Assembly (NCBI RefSeq): GCF_006715785.1
Contig: NZ_VFNX01000001.1
Coordinates: 806,001 to 870,000 of the forward strand
From: Streptomyces puniciscabiei
Lineage (GTDB): Bacteria; Actinomycetota; Actinomycetes; Streptomycetales; Streptomycetaceae
Reading direction: 5' to 3'
Length of the DNA: 64,000 bases
In this document: positions 50,476-60,278 of the stretch, one piece after another
Numbering within the stretch: the first letter of the stretch is position 1
Layout of the letters: every line of letters begins with the position of its first letter
The notes under the pieces: model-generated
Databases searched by the model: none
Told to the model about the DNA's origin: nothing
Seen by the model: the letters and a program-made list of their open reading frames with translations, nothing else
Translations under genes and position numbers: made by a program

Positions 50476-50871
50476 TCAGGCCTCGGCCGGGCGGTCGTCC
50501 TCGACGTGGACGACGTGCAGCTCCGTGCCGTCCCGGTCGCGCCGGGAGCGTCCCAGGATGCCGACGGCCAGGTGTGAGGGATCGGCGGAGTCGTCCAGCG
50601 GGACGAAGGTGACGACGTCCGGGTGATGGCCCGTCACCAGCCAGCCCTCGCCGTTCTTCAGTTCGAGCACACGGAAGTCGCCCGCCGGACCGCCCACGTG
50701 CACGGGGCCGTACGCGCGCAGGATCTCGGTGGCGCGGTCGGCGAGCCCTCCGCCGGCCTCCTCCAGCACCACGCACGTGCCGTGCTCGAACAGCACCCAT
50801 GGTTTTCCGGATCCGGCGAGGAGACGCCGCCAGGCGTCGATGAGGGTCTCGGTGTCCACGCCGGCCATCAT
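50476..50871 (-). CDS. Conserved hypothetical protein at the 3' end of the pgs operon
   Basis: A 131-residue soluble protein with ATG at 50871, seven bases after the stop of the propeller-like gene; ATG 50868 is equally possible. It contains LLAGSGKPWVLFEHGTCVVL, AYGPVHVGGPAGDF and a tandem LNG/ENGEGWLVTGHHPDVV-type segment. There is no signal or membrane helix. I do not recognise a domain. Position as the last gene in a tightly spaced minus-strand group suggests a supporting role in that system, or chance co-transcription. Confidence 0.7.
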   Translation of the reverse strand: MMAGVDTETLIDAWRRLLAGSGKPWVLFEHGTCVVLEEAGGGLADRATEILRAYGPVHVGGPAGDFRVLELKNGEGWLVTGHHPDVVTFVPLDDSADPSHLAVGILGRSRRDRDGTELHVVHVEDDRPAEA

Positions 50872-50878
50872 GCCGTAC

Positions 50879-51946
50879 TCAGACCTGTCGCCACGCCTCC
50901 AGGGCAAGGCCCGGCTCGGCCTTGCGGCGGGTCAGCAGGAGCACGCCGGTGGACGGGGACAACGTTGCCGCCACGACCCGGTCGTCCTGGTCCGTGGCCA
51001 GGCAGACCCGTGCGTCCACCGGCAGCCGCGGGCCCGACTCGGTCCACCAGGCGCCCGCCGACTCCACTTCGGCGGGGTAGGCGGCGAAGGCGACGCGGCC
51101 GCTCGCCGCGCGCTGGGCGAGCAGGGTGCAGTCGTGGCCGTCGAGCTCGCAGCGGACCGCCGAGACCGGGCCGGAACCGGCACTGGGCAGGAGGACGGCC
51201 GGTTCGCCGCCGGGGCGCCAGGCGCACAGGTCGCCGCCCGTGTCGGTGTAGTAGAGGGTCGTGCTGCCGGGCGAGGTGGCGAGGGCGTGGAGGGTGCCCG
51301 GGCGGACCGGGGTGCGCAGGGTCTGCGTCAGGACCGGCTCGGCACCCGGCTCCTCCTGGCGCCAGTGGAGGATCCCGTCGGACGCGGCCGCGTACAGCTT
51401 GACACGGCCGGACTCCCCCGTGACCGCCGCCGGCCCGTCTTGTACCCCGCTGCCCTTCAGGTCCCGCCAGGCCTCCCAGCCGCCCTTCTCCTTCTGCGCG
51501 AGCAGCCGCACCCCGCCCCGCCCGTCGGGCACGAAGACATGGGCGCGGCCCTGGGCGTCGACGGCGACCGCGGGCGTGCCCGTGCGGTCGCCCTTCTTCA
51601 GCGGGTGGCCGAGCGGCTGCCAGTCCAGGGCCGCGAGGCGCGGGCGGAAGTGGGTGGAGTGGACGAGTCCCGACTCACCCATGCCGGTGGGCCGCCAGGA
51701 GACCAGGTGGGCGTAGCCGTCGTCGCCCTGACCGATCGCGAGGACGGGGTGCAGCTTCTGGTCGCCGCCTACGGTGCGCGGGGCGGTCCAGGGGCCGCCG
51801 GGCTCGCGCTCCGCCCGGCACAGCACGGCGTCGCCCGACAGCTGGTGGACACTGAGCCGGCCGTCGCGGCCGCGCAGAAGCCAGTCGCCGTTCACCGGTT
51901 CACTCCAGCCGCGGGCCGCACCTGCGCCCTCGCCGCCCCTGGTCAC
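50879..51946 (-). CDS. Beta-propeller-like protein of the pgs locus
   Basis: A 355-residue protein. GTG 51946 overlaps the NlpC/P60 stop (GTGA), which fixes the start. Repeated blade-like phrases are visible (GDWLLRGRDGRLSVHQL, GYAHLVSWRPTG, GRAHVFVPDGRGGVRLLAQK, KLYAAASDGILHWRQ, TTLYYTDTGGDLCAWRP, GRVAFAAYPAEV). This pattern suits a 6-7-bladed propeller of the tachylectin/PLL type that often binds sugars or polymers. No signal peptide is seen, so it is probably cytoplasmic unless exported unusually. Function unknown; context links it to surface-polymer synthesis. Confidence 0.7.
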   Translation of the reverse strand: MTRGGEGAGAARGWSEPVNGDWLLRGRDGRLSVHQLSGDAVLCRAEREPGGPWTAPRTVGGDQKLHPVLAIGQGDDGYAHLVSWRPTGMGESGLVHSTHFRPRLAALDWQPLGHPLKKGDRTGTPAVAVDAQGRAHVFVPDGRGGVRLLAQKEKGGWEAWRDLKGSGVQDGPAAVTGESGRVKLYAAASDGILHWRQEEPGAEPVLTQTLRTPVRPGTLHALATSPGSTTLYYTDTGGDLCAWRPGGEPAVLLPSAGSGPVSAVRCELDGHDCTLLAQRAASGRVAFAAYPAEVESAGAWWTESGPRLPVDARVCLATDQDDRVVAATLSPSTGVLLLTRRKAEPGLALEAWRQV

Positions 51947-52995
51947 AGCCGCTTCGCGCTGCGGAACAGCTTGGCGTAGAAACCGTTTCCGTCGAGGCGT
52001 GAGACACCGCCCTGGTCGCCGATCGTGGGGCCGTTCTGCTCCTTGCGGCTGGAGATGAAGACCTTGTGGCCCTCGGTGTCCGGGCCGAGGTAGATCGCCG
52101 AGTGGTCCATGTGGTTGCCGGTGCGGTGGTCCATCTTGAAGAACAGCAGGTCCCCGGGCTGGAGGACGTCGATGTTCTGCGGCCGCACGTACCAGGGGCT
52201 CGGGCCCTGGATCTTGATGATGTCCACGCCCTCCTTGCCGCGGGCCATGCCGTCGGCGGTGCGCGGCAGCCCGTCGCCGTGGTCGTTGTCCGACATCAGC
52301 GGGTAGCGGGCCCGGTAGCCGTAGACCAGGCGCAGATAGCCGGAGCAGTCCACGGCGCGCAGGCGGTCCTGCTGCGGATACTTGGTGACGCCGTCCCGGA
52401 AGGTGTACGGGATGCCCAGGTAGTCGTAGAAATCGGTCTGTTCGTAGCGGTCGACGCCGTCGGCCTTCAGGGGGCCGTAGGTGGCGTGCCCCGCGTACTG
52501 GATGCCCTGGTCGTCCTTCTTGGCCGGCGCGCCCACGATGTACTGGAAGGCGAACGCGAAGACGTCGTCCTCCTCGCTGCCGTAGTACTGCTTGAACCAG
52601 TCCTTGAACCACTGCTGCTTCTCGGAACCCTTGGTCCAGGTCTCCGGCATCAGGCGGACCCAGTCGTCGGTGACCACCTTGGTGGTGGTGTTGGCGGGTT
52701 CGCTGAAGGTGCGGGTCGGGCCCTTGAGGGTGGCGGTGCGGGCGCCGTCCGTGAAGGTGGCGATGACCGCGCCCTTGCCGTCGCGCAGCACCGAGCGCGC
52801 CGGGTTGTTCAGCCGTTCCCAGGTCTGCTTGCCGGTCGCCCCGCCCGAGCCGTGCAGGTTCTCGGTGATGGTCTGGGCGGCCGGGAGCTTCGCCTTCTCG
52901 TCCTGGCGCAGTGCGTAGGTGAAGTAGGCGCTGCCCGCGAGCAGCGCCAGGACCGTCACCGTGTGGACGACGGGGCGGCCTTTGCGCTTCGGCAT
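51943..52995 (-). CDS. NlpC/P60 (C40) family hydrolase, membrane-anchored
   Basis: A 350-residue exported protein from ATG 52995. A signal anchor lies at residues ~8-28 (VVHTVTVLALLAGSAYFTYA). The NlpC/P60 domain has the nucleophile in DCSGYLRLVYG (Cys217) and the base in HMDHSAIYLG (His298). The N-terminal ~190 residues are unassigned. The family cleaves gamma-D-glutamyl bonds in peptidoglycan, and in Bacillus the PGA depolymerase PgdS belongs to it. Its place 36 bases after pgsC suggests trimming, release or anchoring of the polymer. Confidence 0.85.
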   Translation of the reverse strand: MPKRKGRPVVHTVTVLALLAGSAYFTYALRQDEKAKLPAAQTITENLHGSGGATGKQTWERLNNPARSVLRDGKGAVIATFTDGARTATLKGPTRTFSEPANTTTKVVTDDWVRLMPETWTKGSEKQQWFKDWFKQYYGSEEDDVFAFAFQYIVGAPAKKDDQGIQYAGHATYGPLKADGVDRYEQTDFYDYLGIPYTFRDGVTKYPQQDRLRAVDCSGYLRLVYGYRARYPLMSDNDHGDGLPRTADGMARGKEGVDIIKIQGPSPWYVRPQNIDVLQPGDLLFFKMDHRTGNHMDHSAIYLGPDTEGHKVFISSRKEQNGPTIGDQGGVSRLDGNGFYAKLFRSAKRL

Positions 52996-53031
52996 GGTGG
53001 GGGCTCCAGGAATGCGTCGGGTAGGGGCGGT

Positions 53032-53514
53032 TCAGGCGGACGGCATGGCGCCCAGGAGGATGCCGGCTGTCAGCACCACATAGGTGGCGAGGGTGACCGT
53101 GCCCACGGACAGCAGGGTCGCGCCCTTGGGCTGGCGCACCAGCTGGTAGCCGACCAGGCCCGGGACGATGAAGCCGAGCGTCTGGTTGGCGTACAGCAGC
53201 GGGAACTCCATCTGCAGCACGATGATCACGGTGGCCTGGATCAGCACACCGCTGAGCACCACGGCCGCGAAGAGCCGCTTGCCGTACAGGATCACGAACT
53301 TCTGCATGAGCAGCGTGGCGAGGTACGTCAGCACGGTCACGCCGACGACGAGCGCGGCGCGCTGGAGGTCCTCGATGAGCGTGAGCGCGAGCCAGCCCGG
53401 AGTGATCATGCCGCCCGGCGACAGGTTGGTCGTCAGGTAGCACATGAGCGAGAACATCAGGCCCAGGCCGATGCCGATCGCGGCGATCTCGGGGGTGAGG
53501 ACGGAGGGGATCAA
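53032..53514 (-). CDS. pgsC: Poly-gamma-glutamate synthesis protein PgsC/CapC
   Basis: A 160-residue membrane protein. I place the start at TTG 53514 (LIPSVLTPEIAAIG): it overlaps the pgsB stop (TTGA) and has AGGAG seven bases upstream, whereas longer frames do not. About four to five helices are visible with the family phrases GMITPGWLALTLI, QKFVILYGKRLF and TLGFIVPGLVGYQLVRQ. PgsC partners PgsB in the membrane synthase that ligates glutamate through the gamma-carboxyl. The pairing is the strongest evidence for polymer synthesis here. Confidence 0.88.
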   Translation of the reverse strand: MIPSVLTPEIAAIGIGLGLMFSLMCYLTTNLSPGGMITPGWLALTLIEDLQRAALVVGVTVLTYLATLLMQKFVILYGKRLFAAVVLSGVLIQATVIIVLQMEFPLLYANQTLGFIVPGLVGYQLVRQPKGATLLSVGTVTLATYVVLTAGILLGAMPSA

Positions 53515-55058
53515 CGCTGTTCTCCTGGGCTGTGCCACTGCTGGCTGTCGTCGGCGGAAGGCTGGGGCGGGCGGCTGGGCTCGAACAGCCCGCGGGACGG
53601 GGCCTGTTCGGCCGCCCGGCCGCTGTCGGCGGGCGCCTGCGGCAGGGCGGGGACGGGCGGGCCGCCGTGCTCCGGCCGCGGTTCGGTCCAGGTGTCGTAC
53701 CCGTACGGCTGCTGCTGTTGCTGGGGCGCGTAGCGCGCCTCGTACGCCTCCGGATAGTGCTGGTACGGGTCGATGCGGGGCGCGTACAGCTGCATGGTCT
53801 CCGAGGAGTCGAACGCGGCGGGTGCCGGCTCGGTCCGGCCGGCCGGGGCCGTGGCGGCCACCGGTTCGTCGGCGCTCTCGTCCGGCGGCAGTTCGGCGAG
53901 GTGCTCCAGCAGGATCTCGCCCTGGCCGTGGATGTTGCCGATCGCGACCATCGACGAGTCCGGGCCGAGCATGTCCAGCATCCGGCCCATGAACTCCTCG
54001 GGGTCGCGCTTGTCGCCGCCGAGGTCGACGGCGCGCGAGCGGAACTCGGCCGGGATGGCGTCGATGGCGGACTTGGCCGGGTGGCCGATGACGAAGACGC
54101 GCTCGGGGTCGAGGTCGGGGATGATCTCGCCCATCTGACCGTTGCGTTCGACGCGGTCGGGGCGGCAGTTGATGACCACGTTGAGCGGGCGGTGGATGGC
54201 GCCGAGGTCGAGCAGCTGGTTGATGTTCATCAGCGTCGACTCGGGGTCGTTGGCGGCGAACACGTTGGCGAAGCGCAGCTTCTTGCCCTCGTGCGTCAGA
54301 TAGCGCTCGACGGAGAGGACACCGGGGTCCGGCGGGGCGTCGTACATGCCCTTCAGGGCCGTCTCCCGGTCCACGCCGAGGAGTTCGGCGACGGTGAGGG
54401 CGATGGCCACGTTCTCCTTGAAGGTGAACCAGCTGAAGCCGCGCAGCTCCTCGTCGGTCACCGTCTCCGGGTCGGCGTAGATCAGCTTGCAGTTCCGGGC
54501 GTCCGCCTCCTCCTGGAGGATGGGGAAGCGGTCCTTCTCGGCGGTGACGCAGATGCCGTCCTCGGGCATCGAGCGGGACAGCGAGCGGGCCACGTCGTCC
54601 AGGGTGGGGCCCATCTCGGCGAGGTGGTCCTCACGGACGTTGCACAGCACGCCGATGGTGGAGCGGATCAGCTTGGACTGGTTGATCTCCTGCAGGGCCG
54701 GCATGACGGCCATGCACTCGATGACCAGCGCGTCCGGCTGGTACGCGGCGGCGCGCCGCACGATGCCGATCTGCTCGACCACGTTGGCGATGCCGAACTT
54801 GCGGTAGACCGGCTCCTCGGTGGCGTCCGGATGGATGAACCGGGCGGCGGTGCCGGTGGTCTTGGCGACGGTGACCAGTCCGCCGCCGCGCAGGGCGCCC
54901 GCGCACAGCCGGGTGATGGAGGACTTGCCGCGGATGCCGTTGACCAGGACGCGGGTGGGGATGTGGTCCAGGTTGGTGAAGTGCCGCCGCTGCTCGACGA
55001 CGCCCGCGGCGAGCAGTATCGCGCAACAGACCAGCAGCACGGTGTAGAGGAAGAGCAC
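53511..55058 (-). CDS. pgsB: Poly-gamma-glutamate synthase PgsB/CapB (Mur-ligase-like)
   Basis: A 515-residue protein from GTG 55058. One N-terminal membrane helix (1-20) precedes a Mur-ligase-type ATPase: P-loop NGIRGKSSITR (41-47), the acidic motif VIECMAVMPALQEINQ and the downstream NCRPDRVERNGQM. These are diagnostic for PgsB/CapB amide ligases that extend poly-gamma-glutamate. Compared with Bacillus PgsB (~390 residues), about 120 residues are added at the C-terminus, rich in Pro, Gln and Tyr (YAPQQQQQPYGYD). That tail is not needed for catalysis and may mediate assembly. Confidence 0.9.
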   Translation of the reverse strand: MLFLYTVLLVCCAILLAAGVVEQRRHFTNLDHIPTRVLVNGIRGKSSITRLCAGALRGGGLVTVAKTTGTAARFIHPDATEEPVYRKFGIANVVEQIGIVRRAAAYQPDALVIECMAVMPALQEINQSKLIRSTIGVLCNVREDHLAEMGPTLDDVARSLSRSMPEDGICVTAEKDRFPILQEEADARNCKLIYADPETVTDEELRGFSWFTFKENVAIALTVAELLGVDRETALKGMYDAPPDPGVLSVERYLTHEGKKLRFANVFAANDPESTLMNINQLLDLGAIHRPLNVVINCRPDRVERNGQMGEIIPDLDPERVFVIGHPAKSAIDAIPAEFRSRAVDLGGDKRDPEEFMGRMLDMLGPDSSMVAIGNIHGQGEILLEHLAELPPDESADEPVAATAPAGRTEPAPAAFDSSETMQLYAPRIDPYQHYPEAYEARYAPQQQQQPYGYDTWTEPRPEHGGPPVPALPQAPADSGRAAEQAPSRGLFEPSRPPQPSADDSQQWHSPGEQR

Positions 55059-55062
55059 GGGT

Positions 55063-55086
55063 GATCAGTTCCTTGATCAGTTCCTT
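55063..55086. repeat. 12-bp tandem duplication at the pgsB translation start
   Basis: GATCAGTTCCTT occurs twice in direct tandem (55063-55074 and 55075-55086). On the coding strand this duplicates AAGGAACTGATC: one copy ends the sensor gene and the other supplies the pgsB ribosome-binding site. Confidence 0.85.
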
Positions 55087-57353
55087 GTGTACTGCTGGGG
55101 CGGGTTCTGCCGCGGTGCCGGGGGCTGGGGCGGCGGGGTGTGGCGGGGCTGCTGCCGGCGCTGGTCCTGCAGCTGCTGCCGGATGAGTTCCAGGGAGCGG
55201 GTGACGGCGCCGACCTCGTCGTGGTGCTGCGGGTAGAGCACGCTCTTGCGGTCGCCCGCGGCCAGCGCCTCGGCCCGGTCGGCGAGGGTGCGCAGCGGCC
55301 GGGCCACCACGATGTGCAGCCAGCCCAGGCAGGCGACGGCCGCGGCGGCGCCGAGCAGACCGGCGAGGACGGTGCGGTTCTGGGTGTCGTACTCCGGGAG
55401 CGCGAGCCGGTCGACGGGCTCCCAGCTGACGACGCTGAAGTGGAGGGACTCGGCCGAACCGCCGCCGGAGAACGGCGAGGCGGCGGCGATCCGCAGCCCG
55501 TTGTCCCGGTACAGCACCCCGTTGGACCGCGGTTTCTTGCCGAGCCGCTGGGCGCTGGCCGCGACCAGGTCCTGGAGGTGCTGGTCGGGCAGCGACTGAA
55601 AGGCGAGGAAGCCGGTGTTGCCGGCGATGACCTTGTGCCGCTCGTCCACGAGCCGGACCACGCCGAGGCCGGGCCGGCTCAGCAGGGCGTTGAGGAACTC
55701 CACGCGGAACTCGCCGACCAGCTGGGCCCCGTTCCGGCCGGGTATCTCGGCGGCGGCGACGACCACCGGCTCCTTGCCGCCCTGGCCCAGCAGGCGCAGG
55801 GGCCTGCCGGACACCCGGTTCCGCTGAATCACCTTGGGCTTCTTGCCCTCGCGGACCTGGATCGCGCCGTGGGAGTCGACGACGTAGAGGGAGCGGTAGC
55901 GCTTGTTCTCGTTGTAGGTGCGCTCCAGGACCGTCTCCATGGCCTCGGGTGAGGTCTTGTCGCCGATCAGGGAGGCGACCGACTGCAGGTCGGCGTCGCC
56001 CTCGTTGAGCGCGCGGCGCACCCGGTCGCTGAGCGTATGGGTGCGTTCGCGCTGGTCGTTGACGAGCTGCCGGGGTATCTCGGCCGCGTTGTCGGCCCGG
56101 TTGACCAGCAGCATCAGCGGTGCGGCCCAGGCCAGCAGCAGCACGGCGCAGACCGCGAGGAAGGCGCTGGCGCCCACCTTGCGCAGCCCCTGGGGGCGTT
56201 CGGGCCGCCCGGTGGCCTCGGCGCTCTCTCCGAGCAGCTGCCGGCGCAGCCGTTCCAGGGCGCCGCCGATGCGGTGCGCCTCGCCGTAGCCGGGGACGGT
56301 GACGGGCCGGGTCAGGTCGCCGCGGGTGAGCCGGCGCGACTCCAGGAACAGCCGGATGAGCGGACGCTGCACGGTGCCCAGCAGCACCCCCACGGCAAGG
56401 GCGCCGACGAGCAGCAGGGCGGCGCCCGCCGCCAGTCCGAACACCGGGGACTTCGTCCCGCCGGAGTGCTCGGTCACCTTGACCATGGCGACGACGGAGA
56501 GGCCGAGCCCGCCGGCGGTGGTGGTCTCGCCGGGGTCGGCTGCGGCGAGCGTGGCGTATCCGGCGACGGACCGGTCGCCCTGCAGCTTGCCGCCGAGAAG
56601 GCTGCCGCTGACGCCCTGGTAGCCGCCGCTGCCCGGTTCCTTGCTGCTGCGCGGATCCTGCTGTGCGCGGCGGGCGGCCTGCTGGGCGAAGGCCTTCAGC
56701 TGCGTGCGGGAGGCCGTGATGTCCTTGCGGTCGACGCTGTTGCGCGCGGACTCCGGTTCGGCGATGCCGTCGCTGCTGAGGATCGTGCCGCCGGAGTCGA
56801 CCACGGCGATGGAGCGGAAGTGGCCGAGGCTGATGCCGGGGAACTTCAGGTTCCGGGAGGCCACGAGCAGCAGCTGCGGCTTGCCCGGCCAGGTCAGCAG
56901 CCCGAAGGACAGCAGGCGTACCTCGCCGTTCTTCTGCCGGACCATGCGCGGGACCAGTCCGTCCTGGCCGCTGAGCGAGGACAGGTCCACGGAGGTCAGC
57001 GGCACCGTCTCACCGCGGGCCGCGACCAGTTTGCCGGTGCGCACCTCCACGACGGCGGTGCCCATCCACTTCTCGTAGGTGCTGCCGAGCTTGTCGAGGA
57101 CGGCATCGCCGGAGACCGGCTGCCCGGCGCTGAACAGCGCGGCGGAGCGGGTGACGTCCTTGACGGACTCGTCGATGGAGGCGCGCAGCGCGATGGCGCC
57201 GTCCTCCGCGAAGTGCTGCTGGGACGTCAGCACCGCCCGCGGCACGCCGGAGCCGTCGACACGGCCCAGTACCAGCGCCGTGATGCTGGACAGCGTCAGC
57301 AGCAGCGCCGAGAGGACCGCGATCGGCGGGCGGATGCCTCCGATGAGCGACAT
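55077..57353 (-). CDS. Membrane protein with two tandem sensor-HAMP modules and no output domain
   Basis: A 758-residue protein with ATG 57353 (MSLIGGIRPPIAVL). Two similar halves are visible: helix, extracytoplasmic sensor-like region, helix, HAMP linker. The first HAMP follows GLAAGAALLLVGALAVGVLL (…RRLTRGDLTRPVTVPGYGE). The second follows LLGAAAAVACLGWLHIVV (…RPLRTLADRAEALAAGDR). The extracellular parts resemble dCache-type domains (SLYVVDSHGAIQVREGKK). No histidine kinase, cyclase or phosphatase follows; the C-terminus is a Gln/Pro-rich tail. It lies between pgsA and pgsB, 18 bases from pgsB, so it may regulate or scaffold the synthase. Confidence 0.85.
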   Translation of the reverse strand: MSLIGGIRPPIAVLSALLLTLSSITALVLGRVDGSGVPRAVLTSQQHFAEDGAIALRASIDESVKDVTRSAALFSAGQPVSGDAVLDKLGSTYEKWMGTAVVEVRTGKLVAARGETVPLTSVDLSSLSGQDGLVPRMVRQKNGEVRLLSFGLLTWPGKPQLLLVASRNLKFPGISLGHFRSIAVVDSGGTILSSDGIAEPESARNSVDRKDITASRTQLKAFAQQAARRAQQDPRSSKEPGSGGYQGVSGSLLGGKLQGDRSVAGYATLAAADPGETTTAGGLGLSVVAMVKVTEHSGGTKSPVFGLAAGAALLLVGALAVGVLLGTVQRPLIRLFLESRRLTRGDLTRPVTVPGYGEAHRIGGALERLRRQLLGESAEATGRPERPQGLRKVGASAFLAVCAVLLLAWAAPLMLLVNRADNAAEIPRQLVNDQRERTHTLSDRVRRALNEGDADLQSVASLIGDKTSPEAMETVLERTYNENKRYRSLYVVDSHGAIQVREGKKPKVIQRNRVSGRPLRLLGQGGKEPVVVAAAEIPGRNGAQLVGEFRVEFLNALLSRPGLGVVRLVDERHKVIAGNTGFLAFQSLPDQHLQDLVAASAQRLGKKPRSNGVLYRDNGLRIAAASPFSGGGSAESLHFSVVSWEPVDRLALPEYDTQNRTVLAGLLGAAAAVACLGWLHIVVARPLRTLADRAEALAAGDRKSVLYPQHHDEVGAVTRSLELIRQQLQDQRRQQPRHTPPPQPPAPRQNPPQQYTRN

Positions 57354-57583
57354 GTCGGCTCGACGGCGGGCTCGGTGCTGCCGCGCCGGGGGCGGTGACG
57401 CCACAGATGGGTCCTCTCGTGCATGCGGGTTCCGGGCGTGCCGACAGTAAGAGCCCGCCCGGAAACCTCAGACAGACAAGAGCGGCGTTAAGTTGCAGTA
57501 AGCCCCACGTGATCTGCGCAACATCGAGCAACCGTCGGACAAGGTCGGACAAATACCCTGCCCATGGGGGGCATTTCGGGTAT
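57354..57583. other. 230-base gap between pgsA and the sensor gene
   Basis: This interval splits the pgs group and probably holds a promoter for the sensor-pgsB-pgsC part. It contains a direct repeat GTCGGACAAG/GTCGGACAAA at about 57534-57553, which read on the minus strand gives two TTGTCCGAC boxes 10 bases apart. No gene is visible. Confidence 0.45.
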
Positions 57584-58804
57584 CTACTCGGGCAGGGGCA
57601 TGAGCGGCTTCAGCCCGTCCTGGGCCGCGCCGCGGTTCAGCAGGGTGCCCTCGGTGCGCTCGAAGGCCAGCCGCAGCCGGGCCCGCTGGGCCTCGGTGAG
57701 GCCGTGGCCGTCACGGAGCGCGGCCGGCACGTCCAGCAGGCGGTAGTCCCGTACGTCGTCGTTCGTGTAGTCGGCGGTTCCGCCGTCCCGGACGTTCACG
57801 GTGTCCGGCGGGATGGTCAGCAGCGTCGGCTCGAAGCGCGGCTGGACGTCCCAGTGGCCCTTGCCGCGCTCGGTGAAGGTGAACCAGGCGATCACGCCCT
57901 CCTCGGTCAGGCCCGTGGGCTGCTCGTGCCGGGCGATCTGGTTGCCGAGGCCGTAGGAGATCCAGGTCCCGTCGACCTTCTCCATCGGCTCCACGACGTG
58001 CGCGTGATGGCCGATGACCAGGTTGACGCCGGTGTTCCGGGCGATCTGCCGGGCGAAGGAGAGCTGCCCGGCCGACGGCTCCGGATGGTGCTCACGGCCC
58101 CAGTGCAGGGACAGGATCACCACCTCGGCACCGGCCTCGCGGGCCCGTCGCTCGGCCGCCCTGATCCGGCCGAGGTCCTGCTGGTTGGCCAGCCACGGCT
58201 TGTCCTTCGGGAGCTTGTGCGGCTCGTTGAAGCCGTAGGCGAAGGAGATCTGCGCGACCTTGACGCCCTTGACGTCCATGATCAGCGGGGTGCCGGCCTC
58301 TTTCTCGGTGCGGGCGGAACCGGTGTGCTTCAGCCCGGCGGCGTCCAGTGCGTCCAGGGTGCGCTTCACGCCCTCGTAGCCGTGGTCGAGGGTGTGGTTG
58401 GAGGCGGTGGAACAGGTGTCGTAACCGATGTCCTTGATGGTCTTCGCCTCCTGCGGCGGCACCTGGAAGTCCGGGAAGCCCTCGAAGGGCCCCCGGGCCG
58501 GGCCCATCACCGGCTCGAAGTGGCAGATCGCCAGGTCGGCCTTGCTGATGAGCGGCTCGATGCCGGCCATCATCGGCCCGAAGTCCATTCCGTCCACGCC
58601 CTTGCCGGTGCGCCCCGCGTCCTTGCGCGCCTGGTCGACCAGTTCGGGGTGCATGAGGATGTCCCCGGCGGCCGCGACGGTGAAGGAGCGCCCGCCCCCC
58701 TGGGCTCCGGCGTCGTCGGAGAGGAGCCCGCAGCCGGAGACGGCGGCGAGGAGGGAGAGCGGGGGCAGCAGGGACAGCAGGGTCCGGCCGAGGCGTCTGT
58801 TCAC
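57584..58804 (-). CDS. pgsA: CapA/PgsA family poly-gamma-glutamate synthesis lipoprotein
   Basis: A 406-residue protein. GTG 58804 (VNRRLGRTLLSLL) gives a clean lipoprotein signal with lipobox VSGC (Cys25); a longer GTG 58834 start is possible. The CapA metallophosphatase-like fold is recognisable: FTVAAAGDILMHPELV, CHFEPVMGPA, SNHTLDHGYEGV, VILSLHWGREHHPEP and VIGHHAHVVEPME, supplying the Asp/His/Asn metal ligands. PgsA/CapA is needed for PGA synthesis or export in Bacillus. It diverges from 58825-59835 with just 20 bases between starts. Confidence 0.9.
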   Translation of the reverse strand: MNRRLGRTLLSLLPPLSLLAAVSGCGLLSDDAGAQGGGRSFTVAAAGDILMHPELVDQARKDAGRTGKGVDGMDFGPMMAGIEPLISKADLAICHFEPVMGPARGPFEGFPDFQVPPQEAKTIKDIGYDTCSTASNHTLDHGYEGVKRTLDALDAAGLKHTGSARTEKEAGTPLIMDVKGVKVAQISFAYGFNEPHKLPKDKPWLANQQDLGRIRAAERRAREAGAEVVILSLHWGREHHPEPSAGQLSFARQIARNTGVNLVIGHHAHVVEPMEKVDGTWISYGLGNQIARHEQPTGLTEEGVIAWFTFTERGKGHWDVQPRFEPTLLTIPPDTVNVRDGGTADYTNDDVRDYRLLDVPAALRDGHGLTEAQRARLRLAFERTEGTLLNRGAAQDGLKPLMPLPE

Positions 58805-58824
58805 CGGGATATCTTGATACAACC

Positions 58825-59835
58825 ATGAGAGCACATCGCTCGCGCGTCATGACGATCGCGACAGTCCTGCTGGTGATCACCGGTCTCGCGGCCGGTCTCG
58901 CCGCCCTCCTCCGCACCCCGGACGGCACCGCGGACCACACCCCGGGCGGCCCCCGCCGGCCTGCCCCGAAGGGGGCCGCGCAGATCGACCTGGCGCGCGA
59001 GGTGGCGGACTACACCGGCCGGTTCGGCCCCGGGCAGGGCTATCTGCCGCCCGGCCCGGCGGACCGCGAGGACATCGCCGCGGCCATCGGCCAGTTGCTC
59101 GACGGTCACCGCGCACAGGCGGAACAGCGGCTCTCGCAAAGGGACTTCACCGTGCGCACGGTCTTCGACCGGCCCTCCGGGCACCGCTATGCCGAGGTGG
59201 CCGACCGCACCGACTCCGGCGTGGCCCCGCGCGGCTGGGGACGGGTCTACCTCGATCTGGACCACCGCCCGAGCTGGTCGGTGCAGGTCCCGCATCCCGG
59301 CTTCGACCTCGGCACCGAGCAGCTGGGGGTGCGGGTGCTGCGCGGCTCGCCCGGCGGGATCCTGGTGATCGCGGGAGCCCATCGCAAGGCCGGGGTCGGC
59401 AATTCCGCGGACGTGGCGCACCGGCGGGACACCGTTTTCCACGCCATCTGCGCCGAACTGGCCCGCCGCGGGATGCCCGCGATCCAGTTGCACGGCTTCG
59501 CCGCCTCCGCCGCGCCCGATTTCGACGTGGTCGCCTCCACCGGTGCCGGGTCGGCGGGCCGGCAGGACGGCCGCGACCTGGCCGACTCCCTGCGCGGACA
59601 CGGCTTCCGGGTGTGCCGGGCCTGGGCGCGGTCCTGTCCGCTGGAGGGCCGGACCAACGTGCAGGGCCAGGTGGCCGACGCCGACCGTGTGCCCTTCCTG
59701 CACGTCGAGTTCGCCCCCGTGGTGCGCGCGGGCGGACGTCCCGCCGAGCGCGCCGCCGCCGCGATCGCCGCGATCACGGGCCGGTGGGCCGGGAAACCAG
59801 GGCGGACCGAGTCCCCGCAACCCGTGACACACTGA
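58825..59835 (+). CDS. Membrane-anchored protein of unknown function, possible metal-dependent hydrolase
   Basis: A 336-residue protein with an N-terminal anchor (residues ~8-29). The core has histidine-rich conserved-looking motifs: VPHPGFDLGTEQLG (His157, Asp161, Glu165), VIAGAHRKAG (His186), ADVAHRRDTVFHAI (His199, His206) and IQLHGF (His223), followed by PFLHVEFAPVV. The H-x-x-E-type layout recalls zinc carboxypeptidase-like folds, which include phage poly-gamma-glutamate hydrolases, but I cannot assign a family. Its start is 20 bases from that of pgsA on the other strand, so shared regulation and a role in polymer turnover are reasonable inferences. Confidence 0.65.
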   Translation: MRAHRSRVMTIATVLLVITGLAAGLAALLRTPDGTADHTPGGPRRPAPKGAAQIDLAREVADYTGRFGPGQGYLPPGPADREDIAAAIGQLLDGHRAQAEQRLSQRDFTVRTVFDRPSGHRYAEVADRTDSGVAPRGWGRVYLDLDHRPSWSVQVPHPGFDLGTEQLGVRVLRGSPGGILVIAGAHRKAGVGNSADVAHRRDTVFHAICAELARRGMPAIQLHGFAASAAPDFDVVASTGAGSAGRQDGRDLADSLRGHGFRVCRAWARSCPLEGRTNVQGQVADADRVPFLHVEFAPVVRAGGRPAERAAAAIAAITGRWAGKPGRTESPQPVTH

Positions 59836-59873
59836 GCCCGCCAGGAGCACGCAGAGCCAAGGCGGTTACCGAC

Positions 59874-60278
59874 ATGACCGACACCTCGGGCGCCTCGCAC
59901 GAGCCCCTCCCCCTCCCCCTGCTCGTGGTCGATGGTGCGAACGTCGTCGGGTCGGTGCCCGACGGCTGGTGGCGCGACCGCCGGGGTGCCGCCGAGCGCC
60001 TGCGCGACCGGCTGGCACCCCTCGCCCGGACCGGCGTGCCCGGCCTGCCCGGTCCGCTGGAGCTGGTCCTGGTGGTGGAGGGGGCGGCCCGGGGCGTGGC
60101 CTCGGTGCCCGGGGTGCGCGTGGAGGACGCGCCCGGCAGCGGCGACGACCACATCGTGGACCTCACCGCGGCGGCCGGCGACCGCCCGTGCCTCGTCGTC
60201 ACGGCCGACCGGGAACTGCGCCGCCGGGTCCGGGCACACGGCGCACAGGTCGCGGGGCCCCGGACGGTACTGGGCTGA
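59874..60278 (+). CDS. NYN/PIN-like domain protein
   Basis: A 134-residue protein from ATG 59874 (AAGGCGG upstream), 38 bases after the preceding gene. It opens with LLVVDGANVVGSVPDGWWRD, the DGAN motif of YacP-like NYN/PIN nucleases. GDDHIVDLTAAAGDRP and VVTADRELRRRVRAHGAQV supply the further acidic positions. Such proteins are predicted ribonucleases. Automated annotation sometimes calls relatives NTP pyrophosphohydrolase; the motifs do not support that. Probably unrelated to the pgs locus despite proximity. Confidence 0.78.
   Translation: MTDTSGASHEPLPLPLLVVDGANVVGSVPDGWWRDRRGAAERLRDRLAPLARTGVPGLPGPLELVLVVEGAARGVASVPGVRVEDAPGSGDDHIVDLTAAAGDRPCLVVTADRELRRRVRAHGAQVAGPRTVLG

Follow-up and report, generated by a model that had tools for sequence, protein, structure and literature searches.

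The 64,000-nucleotide stretch of the Streptomyces puniciscabiei genome analysed here (the window) harbors a gene cluster for a putative poly-gamma-glutamate (gamma-PGA)-type surface polymer. Gene calling and family searches verified eight reading frames at 50,476-59,835, on the strands described by an earlier interpretation of the letters alone (the sequence-only reading), which had joined all eight into one system. We found that six of them form a cassette, consisting of the genes for an NlpC/P60 protein (nlpC), the synthase homologues pgsC/CapC, pgsB/CapB and pgsA/CapA, a double dCache-HAMP membrane sensor and a divergent exported protein; a propeller-like gene and a small gene lie outside it (Table 1). 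Gene identities, motif conservation, co-occurrence, cassette boundaries and folds were established by computation.

Table 1. Features of the gamma-PGA-type locus and its neighbours, in window positions
Feature	Position	Strand	Basis or remark
Cassette (nlpC, pgsC, pgsB, sensor, pgsA, divergent gene)	51,915-59,872		bounded by empty-site comparison
nlpC, NlpC/P60 protein, 350 aa	51,943-52,995	-	PF00877, 26.2 bits, barely over the cut-off of 23
pgsC/CapC membrane subunit, 160 aa	53,032-53,514	-	PF14102, 110.6 bits (cut-off 27)
pgsB/CapB ATP-dependent amide ligase, 515 aa	53,511-55,058	-	TIGR04012, 385.7 bits (cut-off 222.7)
Double dCache-HAMP membrane sensor, 758 aa	55,077-57,353	-	two HAMP stretches
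pgsA-sensor intergenic gap	57,354-57,583	-	block conserved in 12 aligned close relatives; putative promoter
pgsA/CapA, probable lipoprotein, 406 aa	57,584-58,804	-	PF09587, 222.9 bits; start from gene calling
Divergent exported protein, gamma-PGA-hydrolase fold, 328 aa	58,849-59,835	+	predicted structure; alternative ATG at 58,825
Propeller-like gene, outside cassette	50,879-51,895	-	seen at the same flanks in pgs-less genomes
Small protein gene, 131 aa, outside cassette	50,476-50,871	-	at 1 of 59 pgsB loci

Homologues of pgsA/CapA, pgsB/CapB and pgsC/CapC had been placed in one minus-strand group by the sequence-only reading, and this was confirmed by family matches and conserved synthase motifs. 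PgsB passed the cut-off of the gamma-PGA synthase equivalog TIGR04012, and its residues N40-G41-x-R43-G44-K45-S46, E114-C115-M116-A117 and N140...D144-H145 showed no change across 11 aligned sequences, drawn from Streptomyces, other Actinomycetota, Cetobacterium and Corynebacterium. We take these residues to be the P-loop and the Mur-ligase-type acidic and His positions; their invariance speaks against the non-catalytic PgsB active site that would have refuted the sequence-only reading. Streptomyces PgsB carries a variable Pro/Gln-rich C-terminal tail, which is missing from the other actinomycetotal PgsB proteins compared. A sequence search of solved structures with PgsB yielded nothing usable. 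PgsC was assigned to the CapC family and not to the PgsC equivalog, because it passed PF14102 and missed the TIGR04011 cut-off (68.5 against 96.45 bits). The pgsC and pgsB reading frames overlap by 4 bp, and the N-terminus of PgsA/CapA has a lipobox-like LAAVSGC, as read from the sequence. According to PMC5542703, the gene model of the PGA capsule requires CapB and CapC, with CapA and CapE as accessory components; the locus contains the required pair and a CapA homologue. A second CapA-family (PF09587) gene is found in the same genome, distant from pgsB (G000:C2:505,538-506,383).

The distribution of the genes was studied in 199 Streptomyces genomes and at 59 pgsB loci, including that of the window; one weak match under the cut-off, from outside Streptomyces (L028), was excluded. 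The pgsB matches fell in 55 genomes, about a quarter of the sample, and the sensor gene was present in the identical 55 (Fisher p ~2e-50, relatedness ignored). Using six-frame searches with profiles built from family members, we counted the genes within 6.5 kb of pgsB, some contigs terminating within the locus (e.g. L049): the sensor was present at 59 of the 59 loci, pgsC at 58, nlpC at 54, the divergent gene at 45 and pgsA at 33, the pgsA profiles coming from the same loci so that distant copies may escape. The propeller-like gene was near 13 loci and the small gene near 1, the latter with a single-sequence profile that may likewise overlook distant copies. The accessory co-occurrence expected by the sequence-only reading was borne out for the NlpC/P60, sensor and divergent genes, but not for the propeller-like and small genes, and CapA was inconstant. 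The divergent protein was encoded in 47 genomes, 45 of which also have pgsB. NlpC protein matches occurred in 71 genomes; of the 55 full-length ones, all but one (54) lie at pgsB loci. Among the NlpC-profile matches, 23 lay in open reading frames of ~590-1130 aa, where the later part of the profile matches, mostly in genomes without pgsB.

A scan of 84,980 species genomes for relatives of the sensor gave 256 coding places, of which the best 80 were examined. As this set was picked by sensor similarity and is biased to the type of the window, it was not used for frequencies: the sensor was found in 80 loci, pgsB in 79, pgsC in 77, nlpC and the divergent gene in 76 each, pgsA in 55, the propeller-like gene in 26 and the small gene in 2. 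These best 80 belong to Streptomyces except for one Actinacidiphila and one actinomycete metagenome-assembled genome. One of them, L121, has pgsA and the sensor without pgsB, and the same strain has a complete locus (L115). Three genomes of the Streptomyces sample (G170, G114 and G119) harbor two or three pgsB loci of differing accessory types.

The cassette boundaries were obtained from sites lacking the pgs genes. Matches to the propeller-like gene occur in 152 of the 199 genomes (E <= 1e-25), and 67 among the matches listed are at least 63% identical over nearly the full length. We compared twelve propeller-like regions, ten from pgsB-less genomes and two (G201 and G128) with pgsB elsewhere, and none contained pgs genes. 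The propeller-like gene directly precedes the post-cassette gene of the window in eight of them, an amino-acid permease gene and dxs follow within a few genes in all twelve, and the small gene adjoins fadB in four. In the alignment of the window with the pgsB-less site L182, the similarity ends at 51,914 and restarts at 59,873, and 56 bp replace 7,958; the empty sites L185 and L188 gave breakpoints at 51,904 and 59,904-59,906. These data fit either insertion or loss of the cassette. The empty-site comparison leaves the propeller-like and small genes outside the cassette, and both also occur at sites free of pgs genes. On these grounds, and because the propeller-like gene is so widespread, the eight-gene unit was rejected. 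The start of the propeller-like gene is probably at 51,895 (338 aa, as in most called orthologues) and does not overlap nlpC. The propeller-like, small and divergent His-rich proteins showed no Pfam or NCBIfam match above the curated cut-offs.

Grouping the 59 loci according to the flanking genes they share gave 27 contexts, of which the fad/dxs site of the window is the largest (16 loci) and 21 are singletons, some perhaps from contig ends. All six cassette genes were detected by profile on the megaplasmid of S. clavuligerus ATCC 27064, and other Streptomyces plasmids also carry pgsB, already so named by RefSeq. The accessory sets vary: the divergent gene with pgsA at 33 loci, the divergent gene only at 12, glycosyltransferase-like and platelet-activating factor (PAF)-acetylhydrolase-like genes at 10, a glycosyltransferase-like gene with an antiporter gene at two, the antiporter gene only at one, and none at one. 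The divergent and glycosyltransferase-like genes were never together at the 59 loci (Fisher p 8e-11, descent ignored). Wherever the antiporter gene occurs (three loci), Ser takes the place of the catalytic Cys in the NlpC protein. Apparent cassette remnants were seen in two genomes: L194 (G009:C1 near 9,180,599) retains the glycosyltransferase-like gene, nlpC and a partial pgsC with no called pgsB, and G148:C1:1,117,080-1,117,672 retains sensor and nlpC fragments.

The sensor, for which two HAMP stretches had been predicted and were found, consists of two tandem dCache-HAMP units with a dCache fold resembling ligand-binding chemoreceptor domains. Only HAMP exceeded the Pfam cut-offs, giving no output domain, and the matches to NCBIfam kinase families were far below their cut-offs and covered the HAMP/sensor part only, which gives no histidine kinase or chemoreceptor assignment. 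Known dCache proteins such as PctA, CtaA, Mlp24/37 and KinD differ from it in these two respects, the tandem units and the absence of a detected output domain. Over shared loci, the pairwise distances of the sensor correlated more tightly with those of NlpC (0.953) and PgsA (0.957) than with those of PgsB (0.850). Part of this correlation reflects shared descent, because the flanking fadB reaches 0.795 in the fad/dxs context.

The divergent protein had been described as a possible hydrolase, and its structure model (predicted local distance difference test, pLDDT, 85.9; predicted template modelling score, pTM, 0.82) agrees with a PghP-type fold. In a comparison made with VIA-align 2 only, the best structural matches were PghP (14.4), N-formylglutamate amidohydrolase (2q7s, 14.0), the phage PM1 PGA hydrolase and PghL, with wall amidases at about 12. 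Residues H149, D153, H191, H215 and E287 were invariant in 26 of 26 aligned sequences; H149, D153, H215 and E287 may correspond to the PghP zinc ligands His, Glu and His and the catalytic Glu, with Asp in place of the Glu zinc ligand, when paired by order and not by superposed coordinates; E157 is another candidate for the metal position of D153. PF05908 (Gamma_PGA_hydro) gave no match in the protein or in its genome at E <= 0.01, and the comparison with 10 PF05908 proteins (from 11 loci, L200 having no sequence) was weak, with a probability of 13%; membership in PF05908 was rejected on both grounds. The sequence search of solved structures gave nothing usable for this protein either. Its family has 751 members at E <= 1e-5, mostly called hypothetical in databases, and a few of the UniProt names are N-formylglutamate amidohydrolase or N-acetylmuramoyl-L-alanine amidase. 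A 507-aa protein of a pgsB-less genome (G098, L159:8137-9660) matched the divergent profile (E 1.6e-21) and has Amidase_6 at 334-477.

The NlpC/P60 assignment just passed PF00877 and was upheld by the catalytic positions: Cys217 is kept in 21 of 24 aligned proteins, including that of the window (Ser in L027, L031 and L052), and His298 in all 24. The third catalytic position of NlpC/P60 proteins is usually His and is Ser here. The relatives with structures are wall hydrolases, and the protein is probably a gamma-glutamyl or peptidoglycan endopeptidase located outside the membrane.

The cassette resembles PgsBCA(E) of Bacillus subtilis and the related CapBCADE capsule system in its grouped PgsB, PgsC and CapA homologues, the last at 33 of the 59 loci. 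It differs from them in having a dedicated double dCache-HAMP protein, in encoding an NlpC/P60 and a PghP-like protein within its own bounds, and in lacking a gamma-glutamyltransferase (GGT) gene in the window cassette, the two GGT genes of the genome being more than 0.4 Mb away. PghP and PghL (YndL) are encoded by phages or prophages, whereas the divergent protein belongs to a synthesis cassette. In a phylum sample of 296 genomes, pgsB was found at E <= 1e-20 in 15, three of them Streptomyces, and 11 loci of the other 12 were examined, G388 being too short. These actinomycetotal pgsB-pgsC-pgsA loci share the core enzymes with the cassette, but the sensor is absent from all 11. The pgsA gene adjoins pgsC in 10 of the 11; a gene of 570-612 aa follows pgsA in eight, and that of L147, the sole one tested, is a GGT. 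A divergent NlpC/P60-like gene lies beside pgsB in three (L149, L150 and L152). At L157, homologues of the divergent and glycosyltransferase-like proteins adjoin pgsB-pgsC-pgsA, which gives independent support for a link to polyglutamate. A Cetobacterium plasmid has an annotated succinylglutamate desuccinylase gene before pgsB-pgsC-pgsW; on a Corynebacterium plasmid the order is pgsB-pgsC-GGT, and CapA is missing.

Taken together, we propose, with a probability of about 0.6, that the cassette makes, senses and cuts surface gamma-PGA, in which we infer the product, the ligand, the direct gating and the cleavage. PgsB and PgsC would polymerise glutamate and pass the polymer through the membrane, and CapA, where encoded, would assist outside it. 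The dCache-HAMP protein may read a ligand outside the cell, for which glutamate, fragments of the polymer and wall peptides are candidates, and would set the synthase activity, most likely by direct contact with the PgsB-PgsC complex because it has no kinase or other output domain. The PghP-type metallohydrolase and the NlpC/P60 protein would trim or release the polymer. The system of synthesis, anchoring, sensing and turnover advanced by the sequence-only reading would concern the PgsB, CapC, CapA, sensor, NlpC/P60 and divergent proteins, and its extension to all eight genes is not supported. A bolder version, which we offer tentatively, is that the dCache-HAMP-dCache-HAMP protein stays bound to PgsB-PgsC and turns synthesis on and off in response to its ligand, across the membrane and without phosphorylation or transcription, and that interchangeable finishing modules (CapA and the PghP-like hydrolase; the glycosyltransferase and the PAF-acetylhydrolase-like protein; the antiporter) lead to differing surface polymers among Streptomyces.

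The constancy of the sensor (59/59, against 33/59 for pgsA) could also mean that the dCache-HAMP protein serves the synthase as a subunit for structure or assembly, replacing PgsA/PgsE functions, and is not a ligand-driven regulator. The absence of a Pfam output domain and the closest tracking of sensor distances with the outside proteins NlpC and PgsA (0.95) agree with this, but two HAMP stretches and a chemoreceptor-like dCache fold exceed the needs of a scaffold and pgsA often accompanies the sensor; we regard this explanation as doubtful. The product itself might be another gamma-amide (built from an amino acid other than glutamate, made as short chains, or formed by adding glutamate to a wall component), on which the divergent protein would act as an N-formylglutamate-type or peptidoglycan amidohydrolase. 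It is unlikely in our estimation: PgsB is far above the gamma-PGA synthase equivalog cut-off, and the top five structural matches of the divergent protein include two phage gamma-PGA hydrolases and PghL, which was crystallised with gamma-PGA. The near tie of 2q7s with PghP, the wall amidase scores, the UniProt names of the family, the PgsC score under TIGR04011 and the wall-hydrolase relatives of the NlpC/P60 protein speak for it. A decaying or silent acquisition without present function in this strain would account for the patchy presence (55/199), the 27 flanking contexts and the remnants in G148 and G009. It appears very improbable against the six intact cassette genes of the window, a core PgsB identity of 70-95% within the genus listing (bar three higher or partial matches) and the invariant catalytic positions.

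The core enzymes and the naming of pgsB in Streptomyces plasmids were already known. Relative to the literature searched, of which titles and the beginnings of abstracts were covered, it is new that a dCache-HAMP protein constantly accompanies the synthase and that synthesis loci contain a PghP-like family; the exact extent of the cassette and its alternating accessory sets are new as well, and the same titles and abstract beginnings contained no pgs system in filamentous soil bacteria. Our findings define which genes would make up a system for a polyglutamate-type surface layer in these bacteria, provide a proposed function for a mostly hypothetical protein family, and suggest that HAMP relays may control an enzyme complex directly. 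As S. clavuligerus ATCC 27064, a strain of laboratory and industrial use, carries the cassette on its megaplasmid, the system is testable there. PMC8743545 suggests that a strain freed of this megaplasmid has already been made, if its pSCL4 is the record pCLA1.

The intergenic stretch that separates pgsA from the sensor gene is, from its conservation, the probable promoter of sensor-pgsB-pgsC-nlpC. A riboswitch was considered upstream of the sensor and rejected, as no Rfam family reached its gathering score in the whole window and the weak matches were eukaryotic or unrelated. The conserved block at 57,480-57,530 (minus strand) contains, in close relatives, an inverted GTTGC...GCAAC around GATCAC. 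The motif GATCAC, 8-14 bases, CAACTT is confined to 7 of the 59 loci; it has six hits in the genome of the window, and one of the five others was inspected and lies in coding sequence.
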